From a virus: a stretch of DNA of 21,676 bases. Each line of letters opens with the position of its first letter. The first letter of the stretch is position 1. Positions 1,345 through 18,013 of this stretch are shown here, one piece after another. Where the stretch lies: positions 1 to 21,676 of the IMG/VR virus record IMGVR_UViG_3300025928_000038, one strand, 5' to 3'. The notes below the pieces were generated by a model, which did not search any database, had not been told where the DNA came from, and saw only the letters and a list, made by a program, of their open reading frames with translations. Made by a program: the position numbers and the translations under genes.

Positions 1345-2490
1345 TTGTCGGAAACAATCAGCCAACTTCCCACCACCGGGGGTGCGCCGTTTCTCGGCGA
1401 TGCCGTGCCGATTACGCATGGTTGGAACGGGGCTAGTACCGGCAACACATATGCATATACAGTCGCCAAGCTGCTGTCGGCTGGCGGCTACATCTATGCG
1501 GGGGATCCCGCCTATGGTGTGCGGGCTGACGGAGCAACCGACGATACGTCCGCCTGGACCAGCGCCTTCAACGCTGCGTTCAATGCATCGGCCTGCGTCA
1601 TCGCCCCGCTCGGTGTCAGCCTGGTGTCCTCGCTTGAGGTACCAAGCGGCGTATCCATCATGGGCCAAGCGCCTGGCTCGACCACCGGAAGCGGCTTCCT
1701 GACCGGTGGTAGTGTGATCAGCGCGAGTTCTGGTACCGCCCCGGGCGTCACGCTGGACGCCTGGAGCGCTCTTCGTGGTGTGACGATTGACGGCTCCGGC
1801 AGTCAGCCGTGTGTCTACTCCAGCGCCGGTTATAACCGGTTGGAGGACTGTACGTTATTCGGCGGGTCAAGCGGCGTGCTGTTCGCGGGGGCAGATGGCG
1901 GCTCCTCCATCGAGCTGTGTCGGATCCACGACTGTGGCACGGCGGGTATCTTGAATGCCCATCAAGTCACGGTCGAGAGCTCGTACATCACCAACTGCGG
2001 CAGTGGCGTGGTCATGACCAGCAGCAACAACTCGCTGCGGATGTCCAACACGCGGATCGAGCAATCGACCAATTACGGCATTACCGCGGACGGCCCAAGC
2101 GGCATCTTGCTGGCTACCACGGTGATCGATAATTCCGGCAAGAACGCGATTAAGTTCCACGCGGTCTCCGGCTCAACGATAACTGGCTGCTCGTTTAACC
2201 GGTCAGGCCAAGGCCAGGTAGGCTCTCCTGGCGTGACCGATGACTCGCACCTTTATCTACAAGCCTGCGACGGCGTTATTATCACCGGTAACACCAGCCG
2301 CACAGGCAGCTCGACCGGCTATATCGGCCCGTTTTGGGCGGTGTACGATGGCGGTAGCAATGTCCATTCGCTCATCGGCTTTAACGGTCTGACGTACCAC
2401 AACAACGCAGGCAGCCAGACCAGCGGGCCGATCAACATCGGCTCAACGTTTAATCTTGCTTCGGCTCAGAATCAGACGTGGTGGAGCTGA
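1345..2490 (+). CDS. Right-handed beta-helix tailspike-like protein (pectate-lyase-3-like)
   Basis: 381 residues, starting at TTG 1345 directly after the previous stop. Residues about 1-45 (with 'SQLPTTGGAPFLGDAVPI') look like the short N-terminal part that fixes phage spikes and fibres to the virion. The stretch 'YGVRADGATDD' at 57-67 is the classic opening of pectate-lyase-3-type beta-helices. From about 130 to 350 there are repeated short strands and turns rich in Gly, Ser, Asn and Thr ('SSYITNCGSGVV', 'IIDNSGKNAI'-like turns), as expected for helix rungs. Such proteins bind or cut surface polysaccharide, but I cannot point to catalytic acids. It lies far from the other tail genes, between terminase and portal. 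Its last 41 bases overlap the end of a leftward gene. Confidence 0.8.
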   Translation: MSETISQLPTTGGAPFLGDAVPITHGWNGASTGNTYAYTVAKLLSAGGYIYAGDPAYGVRADGATDDTSAWTSAFNAAFNASACVIAPLGVSLVSSLEVPSGVSIMGQAPGSTTGSGFLTGGSVISASSGTAPGVTLDAWSALRGVTIDGSGSQPCVYSSAGYNRLEDCTLFGGSSGVLFAGADGGSSIELCRIHDCGTAGILNAHQVTVESSYITNCGSGVVMTSSNNSLRMSNTRIEQSTNYGITADGPSGILLATTVIDNSGKNAIKFHAVSGSTITGCSFNRSGQGQVGSPGVTDDSHLYLQACDGVIITGNTSRTGSSTGYIGPFWAVYDGGSNVHSLIGFNGLTYHNNAGSQTSGPINIGSTFNLASAQNQTWWS

Positions 2491-2851
2491 CCCTGCGGCG
2501 CCGTGGGGTGCGGGCAGCGGCAATGGTAATCTCTGCCAGTCGGCGCACCGGATCGTCGTTCCGCGGCTCCTGCCGGGCGATTCTCCGACCTGTGGCGGGA
2601 AGGATGATCTGGCGCAAGAAGGTGTAATGGGCGCGGAGTGCTTGTTTCACTTTTGCCATAAGCTCTCGGTCTTTGGCGATGTGCGTAACGAGCTCCTCTT
2701 CGATCTCCTTCGCCGCGTCGAATTTGCCTTGGCCTCGCAGTAAAATTACCCGTTGTATCGCCTCCGCCATCGCCTCATTGTTGGCAAAGAGCGCACGAAG
2801 GCTGCGCTGTAGATGGGCGTAAGTTACAACGCCAGGGCCGGGTGAGCGCAT
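2450..2851 (-). CDS. Hypothetical helical protein, leftward cluster
   Basis: 133 residues with a good ribosome site (AAGGGAG about 7 bases before ATG 2851). It is almost all helix-forming. Residues 34-58 carry a motif 'RVILLRGQGKFDAA...THI' that matches a similar stretch (R32-M56) in the leftward gene at 3439-4032, so the two look distantly related. The pattern resembles one tetratricopeptide-like helix pair. The C-terminal 30 residues are rich in Arg, Ser and Asp and probably disordered. The gene ends inside the tailspike gene on the other strand. No family recognised. Confidence 0.65.
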   Translation of the reverse strand: MRSPGPGVVTYAHLQRSLRALFANNEAMAEAIQRVILLRGQGKFDAAKEIEEELVTHIAKDRELMAKVKQALRAHYTFLRQIILPATGRRIARQEPRNDDPVRRLAEITIAAARTPRRRRVSSTTSDSEPKQD

Positions 2852-2895
2852 TTTTTGACTCCCTTAAAGGACGTCGGGCGAAGCGGGAAGGGATC

Positions 2896-3354
2896 TTACC
2901 CAGTTTCGCCATTGCTTCGTTTGGCGTTTCTAGGCTGCTCAGCAGTGAGCGGCCGATGTTTTTTATTCTTTCGGTTGTTATTGCGCCGGTTGTTGTTGTT
3001 GCTGGGCGGTGGCGAATGCCCGTCAGGGTTTAGCAGAACCTCCAGGATGAGACGCGCGACTTCGCGCGCCCGTTCTGGATCGGCGAAATGTTCTCCATCG
3101 CCGTTTTTGGCCATATCGATCAGCACGTCGGCCGCCCGTAGAAAGCCGGCCAGGCTGGCCAGGCCACGGCGCAGCCGCCGCAAGATGATCGTGAGGTCAT
3201 CGACGAGCGCCTCGTGATCGTGGTCGGCGACGCTGGCTAGCTCCATTAACTCCTCTAGCCTGTTGCTGTCTCTGATCAGCCCGCCGAACACTTGGCCGAT
3301 AATTGCCTTCAGCGCGTCCAGGCTGGTTAGTTCGAGATCGAGCGGGGTCGACAC
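2896..3354 (-). CDS. Hypothetical helical protein with Asn/Arg/Lys-rich tail
   Basis: 152 residues when started at GTG 3354, which has AAAGGGA about 8 bases upstream. An ATG at 3423 in the same frame would add 23 unlikely residues. Residues 1-125 are predicted helices with charged faces ('RLEELMELASVADHDHEAL', 'RRLRRGLASLAGFLRAADV'). The end is a low-complexity basic tail with several Asn runs between Arg and Lys, encoded by GTT-rich DNA around 2950-3000. It sits between the other two leftward genes with short gaps, so it is likely part of one operon. No family recognised. Confidence 0.6.
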   Translation of the reverse strand: MSTPLDLELTSLDALKAIIGQVFGGLIRDSNRLEELMELASVADHDHEALVDDLTIILRRLRRGLASLAGFLRAADVLIDMAKNGDGEHFADPERAREVARLILEVLLNPDGHSPPPSNNNNRRNNNRKNKKHRPLTAEQPRNAKRSNGETG

Positions 3355-3438
3355 CGGTTCGTCCCTTTCACCTCTGTTATGTTCTGACGCCGTATAATAG
3401 CAGAAGGCTGGGGCGGCAGACAACCGGGTGTGGGATAA

Positions 3439-4032
3439 TTAATGCGCATGCCTCTTGGGGCAGTACGGCAGCACAAAGCCGACCGGAACCGGGGTCTTGA
3501 CACAGCGGAAGCCGGCGGCTAGGCTTGTTACCCGCTCGCCCACGACGGGGATCGAGAGGGAGACAAGCAACATGGCCGCCCCGCTGACCACTGTGATCGC
3601 CCGGCGTGCTAGGGGCCCAGAACGACCGAGGACGTGGTCCTCTCCGTTCAGTGCCCGCTCCACCTTGACGGACGTAGGGTTGACCGCCTTCTGGACAGTG
3701 CGAGTCACCTGAGACGCAAGCTTGGCGTCCTGCTGCGGTGTCCCGCCCTCCACGGTGATTGTAACGGTAACCTTGGAGTTGCGCTTTGCCAGTTCTTCTT
3801 GCAGAGTTTTATGCAGCGCCTGTACGGCCTGGTCGATCGTTCCTCCTGCAGCTATCAGGCGCTCCATGTGGGTGGCAATCTGCTTCGCGACCACCATAGC
3901 GTCTTGGTACTCGCCGACCTCCTGCAAGGTGATGGCGCGGCGGAACAACCTCTCAAGCTTCTTATCGCCAGTCTTCCGTGACTGGCAGGCTCGCTTCAGG
4001 GCGGCGAATGCGTGAACGCTTGGTGGTAACAT
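3439..4032 (-). CDS. Hypothetical protein with one membrane segment; first gene of leftward cluster
   Basis: 197 residues from ATG 4032. The N-terminal half is helical, and residues 32-56 ('RAITLQEVGEYQDAM...THM') align with residues 34-58 of the gene at 2450-2851. Residues about 95-130 form a more polar middle ('KVTVTITVEGGTPQQDAKL'). Residues about 143-168 ('AITVVSGAAMLLVSLSIPVV') look like one transmembrane helix, followed by a short Cys-containing tail. There is no strong ribosome site. The AT-rich stretch just upstream (4033-4045) could instead hold a -10 element. No family recognised; a membrane-attached accessory protein is the most that can be said. Confidence 0.6.
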   Translation of the reverse strand: MLPPSVHAFAALKRACQSRKTGDKKLERLFRRAITLQEVGEYQDAMVVAKQIATHMERLIAAGGTIDQAVQALHKTLQEELAKRNSKVTVTITVEGGTPQQDAKLASQVTRTVQKAVNPTSVKVERALNGEDHVLGRSGPLARRAITVVSGAAMLLVSLSIPVVGERVTSLAAGFRCVKTPVPVGFVLPYCPKRHAH

Positions 4033-4245
4033 ATGTTATATATGGGCGGCCCTCTGGCTACCTCTTCCGTATTAGTTGTGATCGTTAATTATCCACACTA
4101 GCGCACAGTGGGGCCACCCGCGCAAGGTCAAAATGCGCCAAACCCGCACTTTGAGCGATAATTATCGGATTATTTATTGTTTCGCAAGAAACCAACGGTA
4201 GCCCGCTGCCGCCGTGCGGCGCAGCATAAGGATCTCTTATAGATA
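4033..4245. promoter_or_regulatory. Divergent intergenic region with imperfect inverted repeat
   Basis: This 213-base gap separates the leftward gene cluster from the rightward portal gene, so it should hold both promoters. It is more AT-rich than its surroundings. TCAAAATGCG (4128-4137) and CGCACTTTGA (4145-4154) form a 10-base inverted repeat with one mismatch and a 7-base spacer. No T-run follows, so an operator or RNA hairpin is more likely than an intrinsic terminator. Related TAATTATC strings occur near 4086 and 4159. I cannot assign exact -35 and -10 boxes. Confidence 0.45.
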
Positions 4246-6117
4246 ATGGCGCGTAGGCCGACCTCAGCTGGTGGTGGCACCAAGCCCCGGATCCGCGTAC
4301 CCGCGGGCGGGAAGGCTTGGACCCGTGACTCGTACCAGAACTTCGCCGCCTCGGTTGGGGTAGGCGCTGCCAACCTCTCTAGTGGCGGCACCTACGGCTT
4401 CAACCCGATCACCCGGAACCATACCCAGCTCGAGTACATGTATCGGGGCAGCTGGCTGGTCAAAGTTATCGTCGACGCCCCGGCCGAGGATATGACGCGC
4501 GAGCGGATCAATATTGAATCCGACATGGCGCCGGATATCATGGATCGGCTCGATGACTACATGGAAGACCTGCTGCTCTGGCAGCGGCTGACCGAGACCC
4601 TGAAGTGGTCCCGGTTATTTGGTGGCTGCATCGCGGTCATAATGATCGACGGCCAACGCACCGACACGCCACTCGATATCAAGACGGTCGGCAAGGGACA
4701 GTTCAAGGGCTTGTTGGTACTTGACCGCTGGATGATCTGGCCGCATCTTGAGGATCCAGTTAAAGAGTTCGGCAAGGACTACGGCTACCCCAAGTACTAC
4801 GAAGTCGTCTCTGACGCTCGCACCGTCCCGCACATGAAGGTGCATTATACGCGGTGTATTCGTTTCGACGGAGTAGAGCTTCCATACTGGCAGCGCATGG
4901 CCGAGAATTATTGGGGTCTCAGTGTACTAGAACCCTGCTTCGATCGGCTGCTAGCGTTTGATAGCGCAACGGCAGGAACCGCGCAACTGGTCTACCGCGC
5001 CCACCTGCGGGTGCTTAAAATCGAGAAGCTGCGTGAGTTAATTGCCTTTGGTGGCGAAGCCTACAGCGCGGTCACCCAGCAGATCCAGAATATGCGGTTG
5101 ATGCAGGCCAATGAAGGCATCACGCTACTGGACTCTACTGATGAATTCGAAACCCAGAGCTACGCGTTTGGCGGCCTCTCCGACGTATTAATTCAAATGG
5201 CGCAGCAGCTCTCTGGCGCAGCGCAGATCCCGTTGGTACGTCTGTTCGGACAGTCCCCGGCCGGCTTGAATGCGACCGGTGATTCCGACATCCGTAATTA
5301 CTACGATTTTCTGAATAGCGCCCAGGAAACGCGACTGCGTCGCCCGGTGCGGCTGTTGCTCGACCTGTCGTACCGTAGCCTCACCGGCGAAGGACTGCCG
5401 GACGGCTTTAATTTTGAATTTGCCCCGCTGTGGCAGCTGGCTGATACCGAGAAATCGGGCATCGCTGCGCAGCTTACTCAGGCGGTTATTGCCGCGCAAG
5501 CTGCGGGCATCGTGTCCAGTGGCTCGGCCCTGAAGGAGCTGCGGCAGTCGTCCAAGATCACCGGCATCTGGTCGAACATCACGGATGAAGAAATTGCCGA
5601 CGCCGTGGCGGCGCCTCCGTTGGCTACCGAGATGGGTGGCGGCGCGGAGGCACCGATGGCGGGAGGGCCGCACGAAGGCGCGGGTGGTCCTGAAGGACTG
5701 CCAGAGCCGCCCAAGCCGCACCAGCCGTCCCTAGCGCCGCACCCGAGCGGCTTGAACACGCGCGAGGATCTAGACTCGCACTTTAGCAACCTCCGCATGC
5801 CGCGTACGCGTGAGGAGGTCGGCAAACGCTACGCCCATCTGGTCGGTGACAGCCTCCCGGAGGGGTTCAAGATGTCGGTCGGCGCAGATGAAGAGTCGCA
5901 GGCCTGTTGGCTGATCGAGAACCGAGACACCGGTAATTGGCACGCGCAGGTGCAGTACAGTGCGCGCGACGAAGCGGTACAGGCCTTCAAGACCGAGTTC
6001 GGCGAAGATAGTGTTGGTCCGATCAAGCGCATGAGTTTCGCGGATTTCAGCCGTACGATCGCCGAGCTGAACGGCCCGCCGCCGGAAAAATCGAACGGCA
6101 GCGCCCCCCTTCCATAG
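4246..6117 (+). CDS. Portal protein, DUF1073 type, with C-terminal extension
   Basis: 623 residues from ATG 4246, with AAGGAT about 12 bases upstream. Residues about 45-450 fit the DUF1073 phage portal family: 'LEYMYRGSWLVKVIVDAPAEDMTRE' near the start, 'TLKWSRLFGGCIAVIMIDGQ', 'HYTRCIRFDG', 'YWGLSVLEPCFDRLLAFDS' and 'LSGAAQIPLVRLFGQSPAGLNATGDSDIRNYYDFL'. In the family the dodecameric ring forms the DNA entry vertex and docks the terminase. A Gly/Pro/Glu-rich linker (about 465-505) leads to an extra region of about 120 residues (about 505-623) with 'PRTREEVGKRYAHLVGDSLPEG' and 'ACWLIENRDTGNWHAQV'. I cannot assign this region to a family. Databases label some relatives as Acb1-like anti-CBASS N-terminal domains, but this sequence behaves as a portal. 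Confidence 0.9.
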   Translation: MARRPTSAGGGTKPRIRVPAGGKAWTRDSYQNFAASVGVGAANLSSGGTYGFNPITRNHTQLEYMYRGSWLVKVIVDAPAEDMTRERINIESDMAPDIMDRLDDYMEDLLLWQRLTETLKWSRLFGGCIAVIMIDGQRTDTPLDIKTVGKGQFKGLLVLDRWMIWPHLEDPVKEFGKDYGYPKYYEVVSDARTVPHMKVHYTRCIRFDGVELPYWQRMAENYWGLSVLEPCFDRLLAFDSATAGTAQLVYRAHLRVLKIEKLRELIAFGGEAYSAVTQQIQNMRLMQANEGITLLDSTDEFETQSYAFGGLSDVLIQMAQQLSGAAQIPLVRLFGQSPAGLNATGDSDIRNYYDFLNSAQETRLRRPVRLLLDLSYRSLTGEGLPDGFNFEFAPLWQLADTEKSGIAAQLTQAVIAAQAAGIVSSGSALKELRQSSKITGIWSNITDEEIADAVAAPPLATEMGGGAEAPMAGGPHEGAGGPEGLPEPPKPHQPSLAPHPSGLNTREDLDSHFSNLRMPRTREEVGKRYAHLVGDSLPEGFKMSVGADEESQACWLIENRDTGNWHAQVQYSARDEAVQAFKTEFGEDSVGPIKRMSFADFSRTIAELNGPPPEKSNGSAPLP

Positions 6118-6125
6118 GCAATTAT

Positions 6126-6281
6126 ATGTTTGATGGCCCTACTGAGCGTTGGGAAGAGCCGCCACGCCGCGCTCCGCCCCAAGAGTCCCCGCCGTTGTTC
6201 TATCTGGGGATAGCACTGGCTACACTCCCGGTGTGGATGTCGATCGTACTCGTTATAAGTTTCTGGGTAGTGGTACGGTAG
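6126..6281 (+). CDS. Small single-pass membrane ORF overlapping the upstream flank of the methyltransferase
   Basis: 51 residues, ATG 6126 to TAG 6279-6281. A Pro/Arg/Glu-rich soluble N-terminus (1-23) precedes a clear hydrophobic helix ('FYLGIALATLPVWMSIVLVI', about 25-44) that runs on to residue 50. AGG lies about 8 bases upstream of the start, which is weak. It fills the space between portal and methyltransferase, and its stop lies two bases before ATG 6284, a spacing typical of coupled translation. A long TTG-started reading in another frame covers the same bases and looks less natural. No family recognised. Confidence 0.45.
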   Translation: MFDGPTERWEEPPRRAPPQESPPLFYLGIALATLPVWMSIVLVISFWVVVR

Positions 6282-6283
6282 GC

Positions 6284-7117
6284 ATGAGACAACGGTACAC
6301 AATGGTCCTAGAGGGCCATGAGATTGTGCTAGAGCTTGACCGCGAAGTAGACTGCGAAGGCCGGTTGCTGCACTTCTTCGATCAGAACTGCCCCTACGAG
6401 CCCGAAGTTATGCAGCTGTTCTTCCGGTTCCTCGCACCGGGTGATACCGCGATCGATGTAGGGGCTAACATCGGTTATTTTACTACGATCGCCGCATCTA
6501 TCGTCGGTCCAACGGGGCGGGTAGTCGCAGTCGAGCCAGGTACCAACTGCCTAGGTTCGCTGAAGAACAATATTAAGGTCAACGAATTCACCAATGTAGA
6601 GGTGGTCGAGCGGCCGTTATCGGACAAGGTCCGTGAGGTGACGTTCTGCGAGGCCCGTGAGGGTGCTTGGTTCAATTGTGTATGGAACCCAGAGAGTCCT
6701 GCGGACACCGAATTTGCTGCAACGGTTTCATCGATCCAGGCCACCACGCTAGACGAATTGACTGCCGGTAAGCCGCCGCCGAAGCTGATCAAGATTGATG
6801 CCGAAGGCTCGGAACATCTGATCTTCAAGGGTGCGCGCAACCTGCTTTTCAACCACATGACGCCGTTCATAATTATTGAGCTGAACGATCCGTGTCTGAT
6901 GCGGTTGGGGTCATCACAGAGTGAGTTGCGCCGGCATATGTATATGTACGGCTATGATACCTTCCTAATCTACGCCAACGCCGCGTTCCCTAAGTGGCTG
7001 CCGCCGACCGTGAATATTACCGGGCACTTCGTCAGGAATATTCTGTTTGCGCACCGCGACGATGTAGGCCTGTTCTGGAATGCTGAGCACCACGAACCGC
7101 ACTTTGTGGCCCACTGA
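6284..7117 (+). CDS. FkbM-family SAM-dependent methyltransferase
   Basis: 277 residues from ATG 6284. A TTG 45 codons upstream stays in frame, but its extension looks like the shadow of the small membrane ORF. The SAM-binding motif I 'AIDVGANIGYF' is at 57-66, with an acidic end of strand 2 at E84 ('VAVEPG'). The FkbM signature 'LIKIDAEGSEHLIFKGA' is at 168-184, followed by 'PFIIIELND'. The family methylates hydroxyls on sugars and other small groups; the substrate here is unknown. The gene lies between portal and head morphogenesis genes, and its TGA overlaps the ATG of the next gene (TGATG). It is therefore expressed with the head operon, an odd position for a sugar-type enzyme. Codon use resembles the neighbours. 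Confidence 0.88.
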   Translation: MRQRYTMVLEGHEIVLELDREVDCEGRLLHFFDQNCPYEPEVMQLFFRFLAPGDTAIDVGANIGYFTTIAASIVGPTGRVVAVEPGTNCLGSLKNNIKVNEFTNVEVVERPLSDKVREVTFCEAREGAWFNCVWNPESPADTEFAATVSSIQATTLDELTAGKPPPKLIKIDAEGSEHLIFKGARNLLFNHMTPFIIIELNDPCLMRLGSSQSELRRHMYMYGYDTFLIYANAAFPKWLPPTVNITGHFVRNILFAHRDDVGLFWNAEHHEPHFVAH

Positions 7118-9046: not shown

Positions 9047-10687
9047 ATGCCCGATCCCGTTATCCGATTCTACACATCAGAACAGCTGGGGGCGACGCAG
9101 TCGCTGACCCCTGATGGGTTTCTATTGTGTAAAGAGGTGCCGATCGCAAGAACCGGCCCAATGCTGTACTCCGATGGTGAGGTGCCGGTCACTGCCGATC
9201 GCGACGGAATTATTAGAATCTATCGCGACGAAGACGAGGTCTTCTCACCTGTAGCGGTAGCTTCCTTTGCTGGCAAGCCAGTAACCAACGATCACCCACC
9301 CGAGAAGGTCAACCCACATAATTGGCGCAACTACGCCATCGGGGTCACCCTAAATCCGCGGCGTGGTGACGGCTTACTAACTAATAACGATTTTCTTTAT
9401 GCGGATCTACTCATTCAAGATGAGGTCGCCATCCGCGATGTACGACAAGGAAAACGGGAGGTCAGCGCAGGCTACGACGCTGAGTACGAAGAGCTTTCCC
9501 CAGGAGAAGGAAGACAACACGGGATCATTGGAAACCATGTTGCTTTGGTAGACCGCGGTAGATGCGGACCTTCATGTCATATAGGAGACAAAGAGATGGC
9601 TGGACAAGCCCGTCGCCGCGCATCTGTCGGCGACACCCTTATTAAATCAAGTTTCGATCGTATTCTGGCGGCTCGAGGTACACCCTCGTTCGATGCAGTG
9701 CTCGTAGAAGAGCTGCAGCGCGTCGCTACGATGCTCGGCGATGTTATTTCTGGCGCAAACGAAAGCGGCGGCTTCGCTCAAGTTACCGCGCCGGTTGAGA
9801 ATTATGGCGCCGAAAAAGAAAGCCCCACCAGCGATCGCTTTTCACGCGATGATATGGGTGGCGGTGGCGTACATGTCCATCTGCACGGTGCTGATGCCCC
9901 TGAGGGTGATCCTGCTGGTGGTGGTGCTAGCGCCGGTGGTGCTGGTGCTATGGCTGGTGCTGAAGGCGGTGGCGGCGATCTCGAGCAGCGGGTCAGTGCG
10001 CTTGAGCGTGCAGTCGCCATTCTTGCCCAGGGCGAGGAAGGCGAGGATCCGCAGGAAGCCCAGCAGGCTGAACAGGCGGTTGGTGCTCCTGGTGGAGAAC
10101 CAACAGAGCAGAGGCCAGAGGCAGACCGCGGCATTATGCGTGACGCCAAGCGGACCCGTGCGCTCGACGACGAGCCAGCACCGCCCCCAACAGACGAGCC
10201 GAGTGACGCCTCCAGCAAAGAGAACGTCGCAATCACCGATCGTCGTCGTGTGGCGGTTGGCGACGCGGCAGCGCTGCGTGGTCCGTGGCAGGAGATGGTC
10301 TCCAAGGCCGAACTTCTGGCACCCGGCATCAAGTACCCGACGATGGATTCCAAGTTGGGTGTGACCCGCACGATGGATGCGATGTGCAAGTTCCGTCGTC
10401 GTGTACTCAATGAAGCCCTGCAGGAAGACGATACGGCTGCGGCAGTACGTCAGGTCGCTAGCGGCGGCAACGTCGCACAGATGTCGTGCGATGCGGTTTC
10501 CGCGGTGTTTAATGGTGCCGCAGAGCTAGTACGTCAGAAGCGTTCCAACCTCGCCACCTCGCATGTCGGTGACGGCGTTAATTACAGCCCGTCTATTGGG
10601 TTCAACACCGATCGCACCCTACAGGCACAGCTCCGCGCCTTGAATACCAAAAATGCGGAATTTTGGGCGAAACAGTCGGGACGTTAA
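9047..10687 (+). CDS. DUF2213-type prohead protease fused to scaffold-like region
   Basis: 546 residues from ATG 9047 (AGGTC just upstream). Residues about 1-180 match the DUF2213 prohead protease type. 'VTNDHPPEKVNP' supplies H83, 'REVSAGYDAEY' supplies S140, and 'GNHVALVDRGRCG' supplies H164, consistent with a His-Ser-His herpes-protease-like site. Residues about 184-330 include a Gly/Ala/His-rich stretch and a short coiled coil ('LEQRVSALERAVAILAQ'). Acidic Gln-rich sequence and a folded C-terminus (about 400-546) follow. In the family the protease clears the scaffold before DNA packaging. M184 (base 9596) has AGGAG 8 bases upstream, so a second product made from this internal start is likely. 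Codon use is A-richer in the first 550 bases than after. Confidence 0.85.
   Translation: MPDPVIRFYTSEQLGATQSLTPDGFLLCKEVPIARTGPMLYSDGEVPVTADRDGIIRIYRDEDEVFSPVAVASFAGKPVTNDHPPEKVNPHNWRNYAIGVTLNPRRGDGLLTNNDFLYADLLIQDEVAIRDVRQGKREVSAGYDAEYEELSPGEGRQHGIIGNHVALVDRGRCGPSCHIGDKEMAGQARRRASVGDTLIKSSFDRILAARGTPSFDAVLVEELQRVATMLGDVISGANESGGFAQVTAPVENYGAEKESPTSDRFSRDDMGGGGVHVHLHGADAPEGDPAGGGASAGGAGAMAGAEGGGGDLEQRVSALERAVAILAQGEEGEDPQEAQQAEQAVGAPGGEPTEQRPEADRGIMRDAKRTRALDDEPAPPPTDEPSDASSKENVAITDRRRVAVGDAAALRGPWQEMVSKAELLAPGIKYPTMDSKLGVTRTMDAMCKFRRRVLNEALQEDDTAAAVRQVASGGNVAQMSCDAVSAVFNGAAELVRQKRSNLATSHVGDGVNYSPSIGFNTDRTLQAQLRALNTKNAEFWAKQSGR
9596..10687 (+). CDS. Nested in-frame scaffold product (internal start)
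   Basis: This is the same frame as the protease gene, starting at ATG 9596 (residue 184), giving 363 residues without the protease domain. AGGAG at 9583-9587 stands 8 bases before this ATG, which is a better ribosome site than that of the full-length start. In lambda, gene C and the nested Nu3 give protease and scaffold by the same trick. The visible coiled coil and acidic, Gln-rich sequence suit a scaffold. Whether both products are made is inferred. Confidence 0.5.
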   Translation: MAGQARRRASVGDTLIKSSFDRILAARGTPSFDAVLVEELQRVATMLGDVISGANESGGFAQVTAPVENYGAEKESPTSDRFSRDDMGGGGVHVHLHGADAPEGDPAGGGASAGGAGAMAGAEGGGGDLEQRVSALERAVAILAQGEEGEDPQEAQQAEQAVGAPGGEPTEQRPEADRGIMRDAKRTRALDDEPAPPPTDEPSDASSKENVAITDRRRVAVGDAAALRGPWQEMVSKAELLAPGIKYPTMDSKLGVTRTMDAMCKFRRRVLNEALQEDDTAAAVRQVASGGNVAQMSCDAVSAVFNGAAELVRQKRSNLATSHVGDGVNYSPSIGFNTDRTLQAQLRALNTKNAEFWAKQSGR

Positions 10688-10693
10688 TTTAGA

Positions 10694-11152
10694 ATGCCGG
10701 AAGACAACCCCGCAACGTTCGGCTCCGAGGGACTTAACCGCGTAGCCGAACCGCAGTCCGCTCCCGAAGTTAATCAGGAGGAGCGGCATACCGCCGAACT
10801 AGAGCCAGGTGGTCCGATCCAAACCCCGCCTGCACCGGAGGTACATTATGGCCACCGCCAGAATCTACCAGCCGGTCCCGCAATTCAAGAGCCTGACTCA
10901 CCTGGCGTCGATTATTCAGAAATGGACGCCAGCGTGGAAAGTGCTCCTGAAGATACTGCGGCGCGGGCGCATCGCGTCGTGCATGCGCATGGCGGTGATG
11001 TAGTCCCGCCTGAATACCCCAAGGAGTCGCGCGGCCTCTACCAAGGCGACTTGCCGCAAACGGCGAGGCCCGGGCCGGAGCCAGACCGGCCACGGGCGGG
11101 ACCGCCGCGGACAACCCCGCAGCGCGTTCGTCGCTTCACTGAAGATAAGTAG
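10694..11152 (+). CDS. Pro/Glu-rich disordered protein
   Basis: 152 residues, ATG 10694, seven bases after the previous stop. It is rich in Pro, Glu, Arg and Gly throughout ('GGPIQTPPAPEVHYGHRQ', 'RPGPEPDRPRAGPPRTTP') with almost no hydrophobic core, so it is likely unfolded. The position between protease/scaffold and decoration protein suggests an assembly helper or minor head protein. No ribosome site of full strength is seen, and coupling with the gene before is likely. No family recognised. Confidence 0.6.
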   Translation: MPEDNPATFGSEGLNRVAEPQSAPEVNQEERHTAELEPGGPIQTPPAPEVHYGHRQNLPAGPAIQEPDSPGVDYSEMDASVESAPEDTAARAHRVVHAHGGDVVPPEYPKESRGLYQGDLPQTARPGPEPDRPRAGPPRTTPQRVRRFTEDK

Positions 11153-11166
11153 AAAGGAGTACTATA

Positions 11167-11673
11167 GTGGTCGCTTTCAGTTATCGCATGCCTGCCGGCA
11201 TTCCCGGCGAGGTCAATCGTATTAATAGCGCGAAGATCGAGGCGCAGATTGTTACCCCGGCTGGTACCACTGGTGCCCCGAGCCAGTACGGCCTCGCGAT
11301 GGTCGTAGATAATACTGGCGGCAACGTCGGTAATATGCGCGTTGCATCCACCGCGGATACGGCGATCTACGGCTTCTTGGTCCGCCCGTTCCCCACTGGA
11401 GCTAGCCAGGATCAGCTCGGTACATCGACGCCACCGGCCTCAGGCATCGTCGACATTCTGCGCAGTGGATACATGCTGCTCAAGCTTGGTGGCGTGACAG
11501 CCGCGGCCAAGGGCGGACAGGTGTATATCTACACCACCACGACGGATGCAAATAATCCGGTGATTGGTGGGATTGCTGCGGCGACGTCGACCAGTGCTAT
11601 CGCGCTCCCGAACGCGATCTTCATGGGTCCGGCGGATACCAGCAATTTTGTTGAAATCGCTTTCAACATCTAA
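11167..11673 (+). CDS. Head decoration / capsid cement-like protein
   Basis: 168 residues from GTG 11167, with AAAGGAG ending 7 bases upstream. The opening 'FSYRMPAGIPGEVNR' is typical of small beta-barrel decoration proteins that sit directly before the major capsid gene. The rest is beta-rich with Gly, Thr and Ala ('YGFLVRPFPTG', 'GIVDILRSGYMLLKLGG', 'GGQVYIYTTTTD'). In the family it binds the outside of the expanded capsid and stabilises it. The function is assigned from composition and gene order, not from a unique motif. Confidence 0.65.
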   Translation: MVAFSYRMPAGIPGEVNRINSAKIEAQIVTPAGTTGAPSQYGLAMVVDNTGGNVGNMRVASTADTAIYGFLVRPFPTGASQDQLGTSTPPASGIVDILRSGYMLLKLGGVTAAAKGGQVYIYTTTTDANNPVIGGIAAATSTSAIALPNAIFMGPADTSNFVEIAFNI

Positions 11674-11682
11674 GCAGTAACG

Positions 11683-11696
11683 ATCCCCAGGGGGAT
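11683..11696 (+). other. Short inverted repeat just before the capsid gene
   Basis: ATCCCC (11683-11688) and GGGGAT (11691-11696) form a perfect inverted repeat. As RNA it can fold as a 5-base-pair stem with a 4-base loop. It ends two bases before the AGGAG ribosome site of the major capsid gene (11699-11703). No T-run follows. It may protect or tune the capsid message, or be chance. Confidence 0.3.
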
Positions 11697-11708
11697 ACAG
11701 GAGTACTT

Positions 11709-12911
11709 ATGAGCAATCGTCTCGCCTATCGGGGATCAAGTGCATTGTCCCCGAATCTGATCCTGCCCGGCCACAGCGATCCGCGTGTGCAGGGTAACCT
11801 GATCCGCTACGATAATGGACAGGTTATCGATTGGATGAAGGGGTACAAGGAAGGTACCCAGCCCGAGCGTCGCCGTCATTTCACGACGGACTCATTTATG
11901 ACGTTCGATGAATTCACCTTTACTAAGGATAGTACAGGTGCATTTTTAATTGGTGAATTGGAGAGGTTGGACCAGGAATTACATGATCCATTAGCGTCCG
12001 TTACTTGGGGCAGGGATATTGACCTAAGAGAGGATGTGACGATTGCTGATGAAGTTTCAAGCTTCACCAACAGCAGCTTTGCATCAGCTGGTGGTATCGT
12101 GCCGTCAGGTAAGGCGTGGCTCTCCAAGGACGCGAATCAGATAACTGGTATCGCTCTCGATATTGGTAAGACTACGCATCCTTTGTACCTATGGGCGCTT
12201 GAGGTGAAGTATACGCTCCCAGAATTGGCAAGTGCTCAGAAGCTGGGCCGCCCAATAGATGTACAAAAATACGATGGCCTCAAAATAAAATACCAGATGG
12301 ACATCGACGAGCAGGTGTACATTGGGGACTCTACACTTGGTCAGGTCGGTTTGGCAAATGCCACGACGGCCCAGGGCTGTGCGGCAACGGATCAGCCGGT
12401 GTCCAGCACAAATGCTGCGCAGGCAGGTGCTTCCTCGCCTACCGGCAATTCAACGTCGCTGAAGTGGGTCGATAAAACCCCGGATGCGATCCTGGCCGAT
12501 GTTAACTACGCACTGACGCAGTGCTGGACCAACGCTGGCTGGGCGCTGATGCCTACCGAGCTGCGGGTACCTCCCGTCGAGTTCGGTTATCTGGTCAGCC
12601 AGAAGGTCTCGAGCGCGGGAAATGTTAGTATTCTCGAGTTCCTGCGCAATAACTCGCTGAGCAACGCGGCGTACGGCAAGCCGCTGAACATCCAGCCGGT
12701 GAAGTGGCTAACAGGCCGGGGTGCGGCGTCTAGCGATCGGCTGATGGTGTACACCAAGGAGCGGAATCGCGTGCGCTTCCCGCTGGTGCCCCTGCAGCGG
12801 ACCCCGCTCGAGTACCGCAACCTGTTCCAGATCGTGACCTACTACGGCCGTCTCGGCGTGGTAGAGCGGGTCTACGGTGAGAGCCTATATTATCTTGACG
12901 GAATCGGCTAA
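11709..12911 (+). CDS. Major capsid protein (DUF2184-like)
   Basis: 400 residues from ATG 11709, with AGGAG 5 bases upstream. The C-terminal half, with 'WALMPTELRVPPVEFGYL', 'NVSILEFLRNNSL', 'KPLNIQPVKWLTGRG', 'YTKERNRVRFPLVPLQRTPLEYRN' and 'QIVTYYGRLGVVERVYGESLYYLDGI', is typical of DUF2184-type HK97-fold capsid proteins. These form the shell hexamers and pentamers. Length fits the family. Gene order (protease/scaffold, decoration, capsid) agrees. Bases about 11895-12330 use codons such as TTA, ATA, AGG, AGA and AAA far more than the flanking parts, so the gene looks like a mosaic. Confidence 0.85.
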   Translation: MSNRLAYRGSSALSPNLILPGHSDPRVQGNLIRYDNGQVIDWMKGYKEGTQPERRRHFTTDSFMTFDEFTFTKDSTGAFLIGELERLDQELHDPLASVTWGRDIDLREDVTIADEVSSFTNSSFASAGGIVPSGKAWLSKDANQITGIALDIGKTTHPLYLWALEVKYTLPELASAQKLGRPIDVQKYDGLKIKYQMDIDEQVYIGDSTLGQVGLANATTAQGCAATDQPVSSTNAAQAGASSPTGNSTSLKWVDKTPDAILADVNYALTQCWTNAGWALMPTELRVPPVEFGYLVSQKVSSAGNVSILEFLRNNSLSNAAYGKPLNIQPVKWLTGRGAASSDRLMVYTKERNRVRFPLVPLQRTPLEYRNLFQIVTYYGRLGVVERVYGESLYYLDGIG

Positions 12912-12921
12912 CTAGCAGGGC

Positions 12922-12938
12922 GGAGGGGCTTCCCCTCC
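12922..12938 (+). terminator. GC-rich hairpin after the capsid gene
   Basis: GGAGGGG (12922-12928), CTT, CCCCTCC (12932-12938) form a perfect 7-base-pair stem 10 bases after the capsid stop. The downstream sequence (ACCTGACTTCC) has no T-run, so it is not a classic intrinsic terminator. It may stabilise the capsid mRNA 3' end or weaken readthrough into the next genes. Confidence 0.45.
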
Positions 12939-12965
12939 CACCTGACTTCCGCTATCGTCGTGCCT

Positions 12966-13181
12966 ATGAACATCATTCCCGATGCAATCACGGAGTGCGT
13001 TGATAAACTGCGCATGAGTGAGCCCAGTATGGCGCTGCTGACGGACACGGACCGGGTACGCCTGCTTGCGTCCCTCGGTTTTGCGCTGCTACGATCGCAC
13101 GTGATAGATCCGCAGGGATTGGACCTGCTGCTGAGGCTATCAGACCCTGAAGCAAGGGTCTGGCTACAAGCGGGGGAATAA
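12966..13181 (+). CDS. Hypothetical small helical protein
   Basis: 71 residues from ATG 12966; a GTG two codons upstream is also possible. It is Leu-rich and mixed-charge ('ECVDKLRMSEPSMALLTDTDRVRLLASLGFALLRSHVID'), likely a small helical bundle. It follows the capsid gene after a hairpin. No strong ribosome site is visible. No family recognised; a head-completion or tail-linked role would be guessed only from place. Confidence 0.55.
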   Translation: MNIIPDAITECVDKLRMSEPSMALLTDTDRVRLLASLGFALLRSHVIDPQGLDLLLRLSDPEARVWLQAGE

Positions 13182-13200
13182 TAACTGAAGGACATGGATC

Positions 13201-13377
13201 ATGAGCGTACTTCCCCTGGTTGCTGCCGCGCAGGCCGCGAAGACCGCTGCGGGTTCGGTGGCTGCTGCAATCGTAGTAGTCAATGCCAAGGCCGTTGCTG
13301 CGGTCAGCGACGCCGATGAGTCAGACTGGCTCTTGGTGGCTCAGTATCTCCGCAACTTCGGCGGCTACTTGACGTAA
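13201..13377 (+). CDS. Ala-rich small protein with hydrophobic segment
   Basis: 58 residues, ATG 13201 to TAA 13375-13377, with AAGGA about 9 bases upstream. Residues 4-36 are Ala/Val-rich and hydrophobic ('AAGSVAAAIVVVNAKAV') and could form one membrane or coat-like helix. The end 'DWLLVAQYLRNFGGYLT' is amphipathic. It lies between two other short genes with gaps of 3-20 bases. No family recognised. Confidence 0.5.
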   Translation: MSVLPLVAAAQAAKTAAGSVAAAIVVVNAKAVAAVSDADESDWLLVAQYLRNFGGYLT

Positions 13378-13380
13378 GCC

Positions 13381-13566
13381 GTGGACTGGCTGGTCGAGTT
13401 CCTTGACGTCCATGGGGACGTGATTCTAGACGAGACCTACGTCGGCATCTCGTCCGCTGCCGCTGTCTCCTCCCGCGTTACCCACCAACTGTCGACCGAC
13501 TCACGGCTGGTGAATGCTGCGGGCTGGCAGGTCTACTCGATTGACATCCAAGTGGTGGGAAGATAA
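13381..13566 (+). CDS. Hypothetical small protein
   Basis: 61 residues from GTG 13381, three bases after the previous stop. No ribosome site is evident, so translation is probably coupled. The sequence alternates hydrophobic and polar residues ('WLVEFLDVHGDVILDETYVG', 'WQVYSIDIQVVG'), suggesting a small beta-rich fold. No family recognised. Confidence 0.45.
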   Translation: MDWLVEFLDVHGDVILDETYVGISSAAAVSSRVTHQLSTDSRLVNAAGWQVYSIDIQVVGR

Positions 13567-13576
13567 CCTTGTGGAT

Positions 13577-13612
13577 TGAGTGGATAACTCACAGCGCCCA
13601 CTTTTCAGGCGC
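13577..13612 (+). promoter_or_regulatory. Two adjacent small hairpins in leader region
   Basis: TGAGT-GGATA-ACTCA (13577-13591) and GCGCC...GGCGC (13594-13598 with 13608-13612) are two short inverted repeats in the 86-base gap before the gene starting at 13653. A run of four T lies in the second loop rather than after it. They could fold in the leader mRNA of the next gene. Function is not known. Confidence 0.25.
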
Positions 13613-13652
13613 AAATCTCTGGGCGTAGCCTTCCGTGCAGGAGGGTTTGCCC

Positions 13653-14069
13653 ATGGAAAAAACGACCGAAGCCCTGAAGGTACAGGCGAGCTTGGTGATC
13701 GACACATTGAATAATGTGCTCGACTCGCTAATTCCGCTTCTAGCCCTAAACCCCAAACTACTCCAGGTAGCCAAGGACACCGAGCAGGCGATCGACACGA
13801 TTATGCGCTTCTACCGCGCGCTCGAGACCTGGCGCCTGCCAGAAATTCCACACGACGTACAATTCAAGCGCATGCAGCGAGCCCTGGAGCTGATCGAGCG
13901 GTTGGGGCGCACGGCAGACCAGCGCCTGAAGGATATGCGCCTCGGTGACGAGGACACAGCAGACGTTGCATGTTACGGCGCGTTTCGCCAATTGGGTGAG
14001 ATCGCCAGTGACGGTCTAGGCAACGGCTGGCTAGCGAAAGAGGATGACGATGCCGACCTTCTTACATAA
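13653..14069 (+). CDS. Hypothetical helical protein
   Basis: 138 residues from ATG 13653, chosen because AGGAGG (13639-13644) lies 8 bases upstream; a GTG at 13635 has no such site. It is all helix-forming ('ASLVIDTLNNVLDSLIPLLALNP', 'FKRMQRALELIERLGRTADQRLKDMRLGDEDTA') with an acidic end. It overlaps the next gene's start. No family recognised; by order it could be a small virion or tail-assembly protein. Confidence 0.6.
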   Translation: MEKTTEALKVQASLVIDTLNNVLDSLIPLLALNPKLLQVAKDTEQAIDTIMRFYRALETWRLPEIPHDVQFKRMQRALELIERLGRTADQRLKDMRLGDEDTADVACYGAFRQLGEIASDGLGNGWLAKEDDDADLLT

Positions 14070-14475
14070 GTGCCATTATAGCGGCACCTCCTATGAGGAG
14101 CAGGAGCTCTTCGATCCGGGAGATCCGGTGCCCGAGAAGTTCCTGAAGAACCCTTGGGTCATGGCCCACACCGACAGCCCGATTAAAGTTCCGCCGAAAG
14201 TGGGTACGCCGGAAGATGCCCGCGCCAAGCTCGAGGAGCGCATGCACAGGGCTGAGGATGCAGCCTTCCAGCAGCGCGAAGACGCAAAGCGCGAGGAGGC
14301 GAAACAGGCTGCTGTCATGCAACAGAAGGTGCGGGCTCAGAATGAGGCGCTAGGGCTGGCCGACTACCGCCCAGGTTCCCTGCCAGCAACTCCGGCACCA
14401 CCCGTTAAGGCGGCCCCACAGCCGCTCCGTCAGCCCCTCCGCGAACCACTGGGACAACGCCGTGCATCGGGTTGA
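14050..14475 (+). CDS. Hypothetical protein with coiled-coil middle and Pro-rich tail
   Basis: 141 residues from ATG 14050, preferred to ATG 14044 because AAGAGG stands at a better distance from it. The N-terminus holds 'HKCHYSGTSYEEQELFDPGDPVPE'. A charged coiled-coil stretch follows (about 55-105, rich in Glu, Ala, Lys, Gln and Arg), then a Pro/Ala/Gln tail. The gene starts inside the end of the previous gene, and its own end overlaps the next start by 14 bases. This tight packing suggests one operon. No family recognised. Confidence 0.6.
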   Translation: MPTFLHKCHYSGTSYEEQELFDPGDPVPEKFLKNPWVMAHTDSPIKVPPKVGTPEDARAKLEERMHRAEDAAFQQREDAKREEAKQAAVMQQKVRAQNEALGLADYRPGSLPATPAPPVKAAPQPLRQPLREPLGQRRASG

Positions 14476-15025
14476 TTATACGGTCGCCGACCCAAAGATA
14501 CGAGAGATCAAAGAAGCCGAACCGACAGCCTCCGTTGCGGACATCGGTCGGCGCTTGCGCAATAAGCAGATCAGGATCAGCAACGACTCCGTCCGCAAGC
14601 GCCTGGCCAAAATGGGCTACGAGGTCAAGCGAATTCCTGCACAGTTTCCTGCTCGTGATGCCGAGCTGGTCGAACTGGCCGGACATAGCGTTGCTAGCAT
14701 TGCCGAGATCATGGGCGTGAGCAAGTCCACAGTAGGCAGGCGGGCCACTGAATTGGGTACGGGATCGAAGCCGCCCAAATCGAAGAAACCGCAGACGAAA
14801 CCAGAGCCGCAACAGACCAATCACACCAGCCCGAATGGTTACCCGCGCAGAAATGGCGAAATTCCTCCATACATACGCACTCTTCCTATTCTCCCTTCCA
14901 TCTCAGGCCCAAAGTTTGGTGATGCAATCTGCTACTTCGATAAAGGGGTTAATCCGATGGTTCTCGCCAGCAGTGCAGACCAATCAGGTAAACCTAGCGG
15001 AAGCGATCCATCAAGTTCTGATTGA
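14462..15025 (+). CDS. Putative DNA-binding protein with two helix-turn-helix motifs
   Basis: 187 residues from GTG 14462, overlapping the previous stop. Residues about 24-52 ('SVADIGRRLRNKQIRISNDSVRKRLAKMGY') and about 76-98 ('SVASIAEIMGVSKSTVGRRATELG') each look like a helix-turn-helix, as in small phage terminases and regulators. A Lys/Pro linker (about 102-122) follows. The last 65 residues are polar and low in complexity, and they share their DNA with another good frame (14835-15125), so the true end is uncertain. A regulator or packaging helper is possible. I do not recognise a specific family. Confidence 0.6.
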   Translation: MHRVDYTVADPKIREIKEAEPTASVADIGRRLRNKQIRISNDSVRKRLAKMGYEVKRIPAQFPARDAELVELAGHSVASIAEIMGVSKSTVGRRATELGTGSKPPKSKKPQTKPEPQQTNHTSPNGYPRRNGEIPPYIRTLPILPSISGPKFGDAICYFDKGVNPMVLASSADQSGKPSGSDPSSSD

Positions 15026-15125
15026 ACACCAGGATCTCTATACCCACTTCTCGCAAGAGGGGTTATCTCCAACTCTGTTTGCCCGCATGGTAGCGAACAA
15101 GCTGGACGAAATTCAGGACGACTAG
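14835..15125 (+). CDS. Hypothetical protein, overlapping frame
   Basis: 96 residues from ATG 14835 (ATG 14853 or 14922 are alternatives; none has a good ribosome site). The beginning is hydrophobic ('FLHTYALFLFSLPSQAQSLVM'). The rest is a convincing soluble helical sequence ('NLAEAIHQVLIEHQDLYTHFSQEGLSPTLFARMVANKLDEIQ'). Bases 14835-15025 also encode the end of the helix-turn-helix gene in the frame one position before. Either both frames are used, or a frameshift joins them, or one of the two overlapping ends is not real. Confidence 0.5.
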   Translation: MVTRAEMAKFLHTYALFLFSLPSQAQSLVMQSATSIKGLIRWFSPAVQTNQVNLAEAIHQVLIEHQDLYTHFSQEGLSPTLFARMVANKLDEIQDD

Positions 15126-15167
15126 TCCTGTCCGTCGTGTGAGGGTCTCGCGGCCGCACACCCGCTG

Positions 15168-15186
15168 ACCAGTCGGTTACACTGGT
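15168..15186 (+). other. Small inverted repeat before the terminator
   Basis: ACCAGT (15168-15173) and ACTGGT (15181-15186) form a perfect 6-base inverted repeat with a 7-base loop. It lies in the non-coding 155-base gap after the 15125 stop. The rest of that gap holds a GTGTG/CACAC-type dyad around 15137-15162 and the terminator at 15213. It may be a binding site or an RNA hairpin. Confidence 0.25.
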
Positions 15187-15212
15187 TGACGTTTCCTCCC
15201 TAGTTCAAACTT

Positions 15213-15256
15213 GGCGGTCATGCCTTGCTTGGATTGCATGACCGCCGTTCTTTTCT
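15213..15256 (+). terminator. Strong intrinsic terminator
   Basis: GGCGGTCATGC (15213-15223) pairs perfectly with GCATGACCGCC (15236-15246) across a 12-base loop, and GTTCTTTTCT follows. This 11-base-pair stem plus T-rich tail is a classic Rho-independent terminator. It closes the transcription unit coming from the capsid genes and separates it from the iron permease homologue, whose ribosome site starts only 16 bases after the stem. Confidence 0.85.
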
Positions 15257-15280
15257 GAAGCGGGGAGGAGTTCATATGCA

Positions 15281-15649
15281 ATGGTGGACGCTTGGTTCGG
15301 TCGGGTTGCTCGCTTCTGTGCGACGCAGCTAGGCCACGCACGCTCCTTCGCTATCGGAGTTACGATAGTTATTGTCTGGGGCATCACCGGCCCGATCTTC
15401 AATTACTCCGATACCTGGCAGCTCTTGATCAATACCGGCACGACTATCGCCACGTACCTCATGATCTTCCTGCTGCAAAACACCCAAAACCGCGACACGC
15501 TCGAGATAAACTTAAAGCTGGATGAATTAATCCGGGCTAACGAGCACGCGCATAATCGCATGATACGGCTGGAAAAGCTCACCGAGCGCCAGCTGGAGCA
15601 GTTGAAGTTAGATTTCGACCAAATCTCCGACGAGAACCCCCATGCGTAA
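15281..15649 (+). CDS. Low-affinity iron permease family protein
   Basis: 122 residues from ATG 15281, with GGGGAGGAG ending 10 bases upstream. An ATG five bases before is out of frame. Two transmembrane helices, about 22-40 ('SFAIGVTIVIVWGITGPIF') and 46-66, enclose the family signature 'FNYSDTWQLLINTGTTI'. They are followed by 'FLLQNTQNRDTLEINLKLDELIRA' (63-86) and a charged coiled-coil tail. This is the known bacterial low-affinity iron permease family (Pfam Iron_permease), usually a host gene. Transport itself is not well proven for the bacterial members. The gene sits right after an intrinsic terminator, as phage-carried extra genes often do. It is complete and has no frameshift. Confidence 0.88.
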   Translation: MVDAWFGRVARFCATQLGHARSFAIGVTIVIVWGITGPIFNYSDTWQLLINTGTTIATYLMIFLLQNTQNRDTLEINLKLDELIRANEHAHNRMIRLEKLTERQLEQLKLDFDQISDENPHA

Positions 15650-15863
15650 TAGAGGTTGTGGCTGTCTGAGCTGCCGACAGACGCGCGACGAAACGCCAGA
15701 GGAACGCCAGGCTAAGGCGCAGGAGAAGCTCGCCGACCTAGAAGAGCTGGGGTACTTCGGCTCGGGTAGCTGTCTCTCGCGCGACAGCCTCGGGCACTAC
15801 CACGTCTTTATCCCACGAGGAAATAATCATGGCGGACGACGTAAATCCCGAGCTGCGCGCTGA
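15642..15863 (+). CDS. Small protein with CxCxxC N-terminus
   Basis: 73 residues from ATG 15642, overlapping the permease end by 8 bases. 'RGCGCLSCRQTRDETPEERQAKAQEKL' puts three Cys close together (C6, C8, C11), which could hold a metal with C44. A charged helix follows (about 15-36), then 'GYFGSGSCLSRDSLGHYHVFIPRG'. Its last 35 bases overlap the next gene. The ribosome site is weak. No family recognised. Confidence 0.5.
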   Translation: MRNRGCGCLSCRQTRDETPEERQAKAQEKLADLEELGYFGSGSCLSRDSLGHYHVFIPRGNNHGGRRKSRAAR

Positions 15864-16218
15864 ACTCAGTGCGGCGCTCGAAGTACTCGCACCGCAGATC
15901 CGCGGTATGCATGATCTGCTCAATGTATCGATCTCTGACGAACTGCACGCCGAGCTTTCTGATGTGGTGCAGAAGCGTGAGAGGCGCCGTGGTCTCATCC
16001 AAGCAGTAATAAACAACTTGGATTCTACGCTCACGGCACGCACTGCGTTGGAAGAGGATGGTTACCCATCACTACCAAAAGTCACGATCGTTAATTCTCA
16101 GTTTACCGAACTGCAGGGTGAGGCAGCCGATCTGCAGGCGGCGGTTGGTGTGTTCTCGCAAGAGGCCAGCCGTTTAAGTGTCGGGCTAGGGGCTGCTGCG
16201 GATAAACCTAAGGAGTAA
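15829..16218 (+). CDS. Hypothetical helical coiled-coil-like protein
   Basis: 129 residues from ATG 15829, with GAGG about 8 bases upstream. The sequence is mostly long helix ('PELRAELSAALEVLAPQIRGMHDLL', 'ISDELHAELSDVVQKRERRRGLIQAVINNL') with a heptad-like pattern in the second half. The TAA overlaps an ATG of the next gene (TAATG). Probably a virion-associated or chaperone-like protein; no family recognised. Confidence 0.6.
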   Translation: MADDVNPELRAELSAALEVLAPQIRGMHDLLNVSISDELHAELSDVVQKRERRRGLIQAVINNLDSTLTARTALEEDGYPSLPKVTIVNSQFTELQGEAADLQAAVGVFSQEASRLSVGLGAAADKPKE

Positions 16219-16223
16219 TGTCA

Positions 16224-16577
16224 ATGGCTACACTAACGACTGACCAATTCTATCCCTCCGTAGCGCTCTCGGCTGCTGATTCTGCTGGGGTCGCTGCCCC
16301 ACTGTTCGGTGTGCCGATCTGGGCAAGTTCGGATGAGACCGTGCTGACTGTTGTGGTCGCTGCTGACGGCATGAGTGCGGCTGTACAGACGGTAGCGCCA
16401 GGCACTGGGCGGATTTCGGTTACTGCTGAAGGCGATCCGACCCCGGGTGTGGATACCCTTACCGGCGTCTCTGAGGATGTCACCGTGACCCTCGGCCCGT
16501 CGCATGAGGCGAAGGTCCTAACCCTGGCCCTCGGCGCTCCTGCCGATAAGGTCGTCACTCCGCCGCCCGGGCCGTAA
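16224..16577 (+). CDS. Ig-like (Big_2-type) domain protein
   Basis: 117 residues from ATG 16224, chosen because AAGGAG stands 8 bases before it but only 2 bases before ATG 16218. Residues about 30-75 ('PIWASSDETVLTVVVAADGMSAAVQTVAPGTGRISVTAEGD') follow the bacterial Ig-like group 2 pattern of a Trp strand, a 'SSD' turn and an 'APGTG-I-V' strand. Such domains decorate phage capsids and tails and bind surface carbohydrates weakly. A terminator-like element follows immediately. A decoration protein is the best guess. Confidence 0.6.
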   Translation: MATLTTDQFYPSVALSAADSAGVAAPLFGVPIWASSDETVLTVVVAADGMSAAVQTVAPGTGRISVTAEGDPTPGVDTLTGVSEDVTVTLGPSHEAKVLTLALGAPADKVVTPPPGP

Positions 16578-16590
16578 TTACTGAAAAAAC

Positions 16591-17997: not shown

Positions 17998-18013
17998 AAG
18001 GTCGCTGCGATTG

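Follow-up and report, generated by a model that had tools for sequence, protein, structure and literature searches.

RexB and RexA of phage lambda form a membrane plus soluble exclusion pair, and morons are extra genes set between the genes of a phage module. Here we describe a locus that we compare with both. In the 21,676-base virus record IMGVR_UViG_3300025928_000038 (analyzed from position 1 to 21,676 and referred to below as the window), a cassette of three leftward genes, A, B, and C, sits between the genes for a beta-helix tail spike and the portal protein, on the strand opposite to both flanking genes (Table 1). An initial annotation, made from the letters of this DNA, had noted three genes read against the rest of the module, and all three open reading frames (ORFs) were found. 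It had also called them accessory genes between packaging genes; the accessory position holds, whereas the flanking genes are spike and portal rather than a pair of packaging genes. We conclude that the three genes are real and that A and C are probably distant paralogs, and we suggest, more tentatively, that the cassette is a moron-like accessory set.

A sister contig, L002 (6,104 bp, 93% nucleotide identity), carries the same cassette. Over aligned codons, the ratio of nonsynonymous to synonymous substitution rates (dN/dS) between the window and L002 was 0.22 for B (dS 0.51) and 0.23 for C (dS 0.93). Elsewhere, the ratio was 0.02 for the TerL end (dS 0.35), 0.13 for the small gene that starts at 384 (dS 0.23), and 0.10 for the spike gene (dS 0.22), and the small gene that starts at 763 has four differences, all of them silent. 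On this comparison, B and C look to be under selection as proteins. Differences between the two contigs, counted with gaps left out, are unevenly spread: 153 of 2,400 positions in 1-2400 (6%), 211 of 1,200 in 2401-3600 (18%), and none in 3601-5946, a pattern that suggests a recombination junction inside gene A.

One could also suppose that these leftward frames are open only by chance, opposite rightward genes that escaped annotation. On the rightward strand, ORFs as long as 120 amino acids (aa) do overlap A, B, and C, and we tested six rightward frames over the cassette. Three of them gain stops in L002 (three stops in 2456-2743 and one each in 2855-3217 and 3303-3500), two show no differences, and the sixth, 3455-3712, has eight differences and no stop. 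The frame antisense to B, 2855-3217, has a dN/dS of 0.31, close to that of B itself; the ratio alone is therefore not decisive, and it is the stop in L002 that argues against this frame. By codon usage, the leftward frame of A comes out on top of all six (mean score 0.098), whereas B and C are each slightly outscored by a rightward frame that contains stops (6 for B, 3 for C), and codon usage alone does not separate the two strands of these genes. The leftward frames of B and C, in contrast, combine their low ratios with the absence of any stop in L002, A and C appear homologous (see below), and the start signals are conserved: B has the ribosome-binding-like site GAAAGGGA followed by GTG in both the window and L002, and C has AAGGGAG, which is kept in L002. 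The B frame extends back to a TTG at 3423, but we prefer the GTG at 3354 as its start, since GAAAGGGA is conserved in L002 and follows a promoter-like site with conserved hexamers. Hence, the three leftward genes are real, and the chance-frame explanation, already disfavored, is now very improbable.

Residues 4-79 of A and 6-81 of C align without gaps from near both N termini, and 16 of 76 positions are identical. The shared helical motif that the initial annotation had placed in the first and last genes was confirmed by reading the sequences, with R32, I34, L36, G40, E41, Y42, A45, T54, H55, and M56 of A matching R34, I36, L38, G42, K43, F44, A47, T56, H57, and I58 of C, and the similarity exceeds chance. 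The raw BLOSUM62 score was 69 for A with C and 68 for A with the C of L002, whereas shuffles averaged 25-32 and peaked at 58-68. No shuffle reached the A-C score in any of three tests of 3,000 or four tests of 20,000, two of the latter preserving the hydrophobic pattern. hhalign aligned A with C at an E value of 1.5e-4 (probability 51%), and a C profile searched against 17,916 ORFs of 106 loci found, as its best match besides C itself, the A of L002 (E 0.0029). Of the 435 possible pairings of window proteins, only two score higher than A-C: the two oxygenases (158) and two long tail proteins (98). Identities by codon position are 0.49, 0.49, and 0.33, which suggests that any duplication is old; the C of L002 lacks the F/Y and A of the motif (GKPD, with a 2-residue deletion). 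Other results count against homology. A minus-strand 535-aa frame of L005 scores 64 with A, top of 698 ORFs of at least 100 aa; in the A profile search, an ORF of L030 (E 7.4e-4) outranks the C of L002 (E 0.14); and BLASTP detected no A-C similarity. The L030 frame had been picked through a joint-profile match, and we regard it as chance. With the shuffles, hhalign, and the C profile in support, although BLASTP by itself misses the relationship, we consider it likely that A and C are homologous, as distant paralogs, and the case for this is stronger than the initial annotation could make it.

C is predicted to fold as a long helical hairpin (helices 6-40 and 44-83) with a mean predicted local distance difference test (pLDDT) score of 89-95 per ten-residue block across residues 11-70 and of 72 overall. 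The glycine shared with A lies at the turn of this hairpin, with the 2-residue deletion of the L002 protein nearby. The low-confidence model of A has a helix at 24-38, a turn, and a helix at 42-61, at the residues that match the C hairpin. Beyond its helical domain, A has a further stretch at about 86-117, which may resemble tape-measure proteins, then a predicted membrane helix at about 145-165 and a short tail with two cysteines. Hydropathy supports the single membrane helix that had been ascribed to the first gene: A contains one strongly hydrophobic stretch, 146-164 (Kyte-Doolittle 2.2), and the RR preceding it suggests an N-in, C-out topology. B shows no sequence relationship with A or C. 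Its tail, residues 121-152, has a net charge of +8, and residues 81-120 of C have a net charge of +7.

Searches of Pfam, PHROGs, NCBIfam, and PADLOC placed A, B, and C in no recognized family, in agreement with the initial annotation, and sequence searches of the PDB with the cassette proteins gave nothing below E 0.06. Matches to EzrA (E 0.012), CcFV1_CP (0.0071), T2SSF (0.077), Trypco1 (0.93), HrpZ (0.067), and LeoA (0.0097) were rejected because they fall below curated cut-offs where these exist and are mutually inconsistent. LeoA, whose model A matches in its central part (264-371 of 559; 13 bits), is the one weak match from PADLOC, in which B and C have none at E <= 1; a role in defense, anti-defense, or superinfection exclusion, which the initial annotation had raised, stays a suggestion. 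A literature search over titles and the beginnings of abstracts returned no title on this cassette.

The position between spike and portal genes raises a further explanation, namely that A, B, and C are minor virion, scaffold, or assembly proteins that are leftward by happenstance. Coiled coils fit a scaffold or tape-measure-like role, C is predicted to be a coiled-coil hairpin, and its sub-threshold PHROG match is named minor tail protein (E 0.13). Against this, no virion family in Pfam or PHROGs is significantly matched by A, B, or C, and the genes lie on the opposite strand with their own promoter-like site. Moreover, they were not found in L004 (93.6 kb; portal 61% identical), the closest relative whose record is long, despite the TerL end, spike, portal, MuF, protease, cement, and major capsid genes that it shares with the window. 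We consider a virion role quite unlikely. Between spike and portal, L004 has a different, rightward gene of 281 aa with no Pfam match (E <= 0.01), and at E <= 1 neither A/C nor B matches anything in its whole record.

Of all the contigs searched, the window and L002 are the only two in which the cassette was seen. In 50,697 phage records, tblastn found no match to A, B, or C at E <= 1, and in 72,556 plasmid records, B and C had no match and A had one, to a PAS-domain protein (E 0.4). We looked for the same triplet in other phages, as the initial annotation had advised, and found one other contig, the close sister L002. Four of five pattern scans of IMG/VR, made with A, B, C, or two-row alignments, matched L002 only, and the one made with C alone returned no match, not even the C of L002; these scans therefore miss even fairly close relatives. 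Profile searches over the full length of 60 distinct related records (12 in one set and 50 in another, with two repeats), many of them fragments, found A/C-like and B-like genes only in L002 at E <= 0.1; the search of 17,916 ORFs covered 28 further records over part of their DNA. Record G012 gave E 0.21 with the A/C profile and 0.69 with B, which we take as chance. Locus L019 belongs to a Terriglobia metagenome-assembled genome, and among 297 genomes of its phylum one gave an A/C-profile match (E 8.2e-4, 59 columns in a 523-aa frame); we treated it as chance because, in our reading of the DNA, a penicillin-binding-protein-like gene lies opposite this frame.

The interval that holds the cassette is itself variable. 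Of 94 loci examined, 16 include both ends of the TerL-portal gap. Ten of these gaps are shorter than 0.5 kb and the other six span 3.9-7.5 kb, counts that are not independent because some of the phages are the same or near-identical (L011/L019/L044, L017/L018, L005/L006, and the window/L003); gene orders around the slot were read for the loci other than L009 to L011. The best reading of this distribution is that the cassette is an optional, lineage-restricted gene set in a variable interval.

Candidate expression signals lie in the DNA in and around the genes. Both hexamers of the promoter-like site before B are identical in L002. The terminator-like hairpin inside the B tail folds at -17.1 kcal/mol (none of 200 shuffles as good), and its L002 counterpart, which differs in sequence, is still predicted to form a hairpin (-13.7 kcal/mol, 8 of 200 shuffles as good). 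Rightward transcription could end at the hairpin of the window, ahead of the cassette. The same DNA holds repeats, and a rival reading is that B or C would bind nucleic acid, with the repeats and the DnaA-box-like site serving as operator or origin. AATTATC occurs 8 times in the window against 1.61 expected (0 of 100 shuffles reach 8), with five of the 8 copies in 3298-4166. The palindrome CGATAATTATCG, allowing up to 2 mismatches, occurs 6 times against 0.62 expected (0 of 100 shuffles), repeats and a DnaA-box-like site fall in the gap between A and the portal gene, and the tail of B and the C-terminal part of C are basic. However, both patterns were chosen after inspecting the region, and four of the six palindrome matches lie outside it. 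The other patterns are near chance: GGATAATTAA is present only twice in the window with up to 1 mismatch (0.47 expected, 7 of 100 shuffles reach 2), and 22 of 100 shuffles hold at least one TTATCCACA. No DNA-binding family was matched above its cut-off, HTH_68 reaching E 0.037 for one row. We give a regulatory or replication cassette a small probability.

We tentatively favor, at somewhat under an even chance, a moron-like accessory set made up of a membrane-anchored coiled-coil protein, its soluble paralog, and a small partner, with a role most likely outside the virion. B and C would probably be transcribed leftward from their own host-type promoter (sigma-70, extended -10), and transcription of A would probably start in the divergent region that adjoins the portal gene. 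The C-terminal helix of A would tether it to the inner membrane and leave its coiled-coil hairpin domain in the cytoplasm. The pairing of a membrane-anchored A with a soluble paralog suggests that C modulates A or shares its partner; C may pair with A or compete for A's partner, and B may be the third, small partner that completes the set. The set would most likely act at the host membrane against the host or competing phages, in exclusion or counter-defense. Transcription, topology, the A-C interaction, and the role are all inferred here, and exclusion, counter-defense, and lysis timing each fit the cassette. A bolder version, which we think unlikely, is an undescribed membrane switch in which a coiled-coil protein is controlled by its own soluble paralog, the product of an old duplication, together with a third, small partner, and is directed at the host or at rival phages.

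Lysis timing would make A an antiholin- or holin-like protein and C its soluble regulator, near the small genes in 384-1008. A does have one hydrophobic segment and two cysteines in its short tail, and it shares its side of the portal gene with the small genes, the second of which (763-1008) is very hydrophobic by eye. Neither small gene has a Pfam holin match, though, the cassette is on the strand opposite to the late genes, and no endolysin match was found among the neighboring proteins scanned with Pfam and PHROGs. A lysis-timing module seems improbable.

Several results weigh against the moron-like reading, among them the antisense ratio over B and the BLASTP and A-profile results given above. 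First, nothing ties A, B, or C to exclusion or defense, and no integrase was found in the window, which is a fragment, or in L004, so a role expressed in the lysogen lacks support. Second, the evidence for A is thinner than that for B and C: its structure model is poor (pLDDT 40), it has no clear ribosome-binding site, and its 10 substitutions relative to L002 all lie below 3601, with 3601-5946 identical; only two copies of the cassette were found. Third, a promoter scan of 2300-4350 found 1 site with 0.6 expected by chance, so support for the promoter comes from its conservation beside variable DNA and not from the scan, and terminator-like sites in the same interval (5 found, 2.3 expected) are barely above chance. 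Finally, the GC content of the cassette, 0.57-0.61, is within the range of the window, and its base composition is not foreign. If the inferred role is true, an orphan pair of membrane and soluble paralogs deserves a place when accessory modules of phages are screened for exclusion or counter-defense, and the TerL-portal interval of some related phages is a place to seek more of them.

Beyond the portal gene, the rightward genes encode an FkbM-type methyltransferase, a Mu-F head protein, a DUF2213 protease-like protein, a cement protein, and the major capsid protein (PF09950). The methyltransferase gene (6149-7117, PF05050) lies between the portal and MuF genes; a protein that looks similar by eye is encoded directly ahead of the portal gene in L007. 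The product of 14462-15025 has a weak helix-turn-helix match (Sigma70_r4_2, E 1.8e-4; PHROG D5-like regulator, E 1.8e-5). A DUF6065 gene (16715-17449, E 1.1e-80) precedes the two adjoining 2OG-Fe(II) oxygenase genes (17446-17997 and 18011-18568; PF13640, E 6.6e-10 and 1.7e-15), the highest-scoring pair mentioned above. A sulfotransferase-like gene (20876-21439, PF03567, E 3.9e-6) overlaps at its end an opposite-strand tRNA-Met(CAT) at 21399-21470. Record L032 (IMGVR_UViG_3300006175_000029) is 99.97% identical to window 9191-21676 over 12,486 bases; being longer than this overlap, it continues the same phage past the right end of the window.

Table 1. Features of the cassette and its flanks, in window coordinates
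Feature	Position	Strand or direction	Remarks
TerL C terminus	3-374	rightward	61% identity to L007 TerL over 119 residues
Two small genes	384-746, 763-1008	rightward	
Beta-helix tail spike	1345-2490	+	left flank of cassette; Pfam/PHROGs
Gene C	2450-2851	-	133 aa; soluble paralog (probable) of A N-terminal domain; basic C-terminal part
C/spike overlap	2450-2490	C leftward, spike rightward	tail to tail, 41 bp
Gene B	2896-3354	-	152 aa from GTG; basic Asn/Arg-rich tail
Terminator-like hairpin and T run	2933-2954	+	inside coding part of B tail
Promoter-like site before B	3394-3423	-	TTGTCT, 18 nt, TATTAT; TG ahead of second hexamer
GGATAATTAA	3433-3442	+	inverted relative to copy at 4085-4094; just upstream of B promoter-like site
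Gene A	3439-4032	-	197 aa; helical domain 4-79 common with C; one predicted membrane helix
Divergent gap, A versus portal	4033-4245		non-coding, 213 bp
DnaA-box-like TTATCCACA	4089-4097		one exact copy; in 213-bp gap beside portal gene
Palindrome CGATAATTATCG	4156-4167		12 bp; in 213-bp gap; related copy 4079-4093
Portal protein	4246-6117	+	right flank of cassette; PF06381, E 6.5e-109

Three kinds of known system resemble the cassette or its products. At the level of structure, residues 1-87 of C form a predicted antiparallel coiled-coil hairpin like those of the SerRS arm, Snf7/CHMP, Vipp1, SMC arms, and ROP variants. The likeness is to a generic arrangement: VIA Z values of about 9-11 were obtained with PDB hairpins from many unrelated proteins, Foldseek matches had E values of 0.057 or worse, and no single family stands out. 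We rejected these matches as functional evidence. Like morons, the cassette consists of extra genes between module genes, in the opposite orientation and with their own promoter-like site; it is limited to one sub-lineage, and the slot of a relative is filled by another gene. It differs from them in having three genes, two of them probably paralogous, in a GC content (57-61%) that is not atypical, and in the lack of a leftward terminator after C among the terminator-like sites listed. Like lambda RexB and RexA, the cassette has small leftward genes that would encode one membrane protein and soluble partners, but no match in Pfam, PHROGs, or PADLOC bears those names, and A has one hydrophobic segment only.

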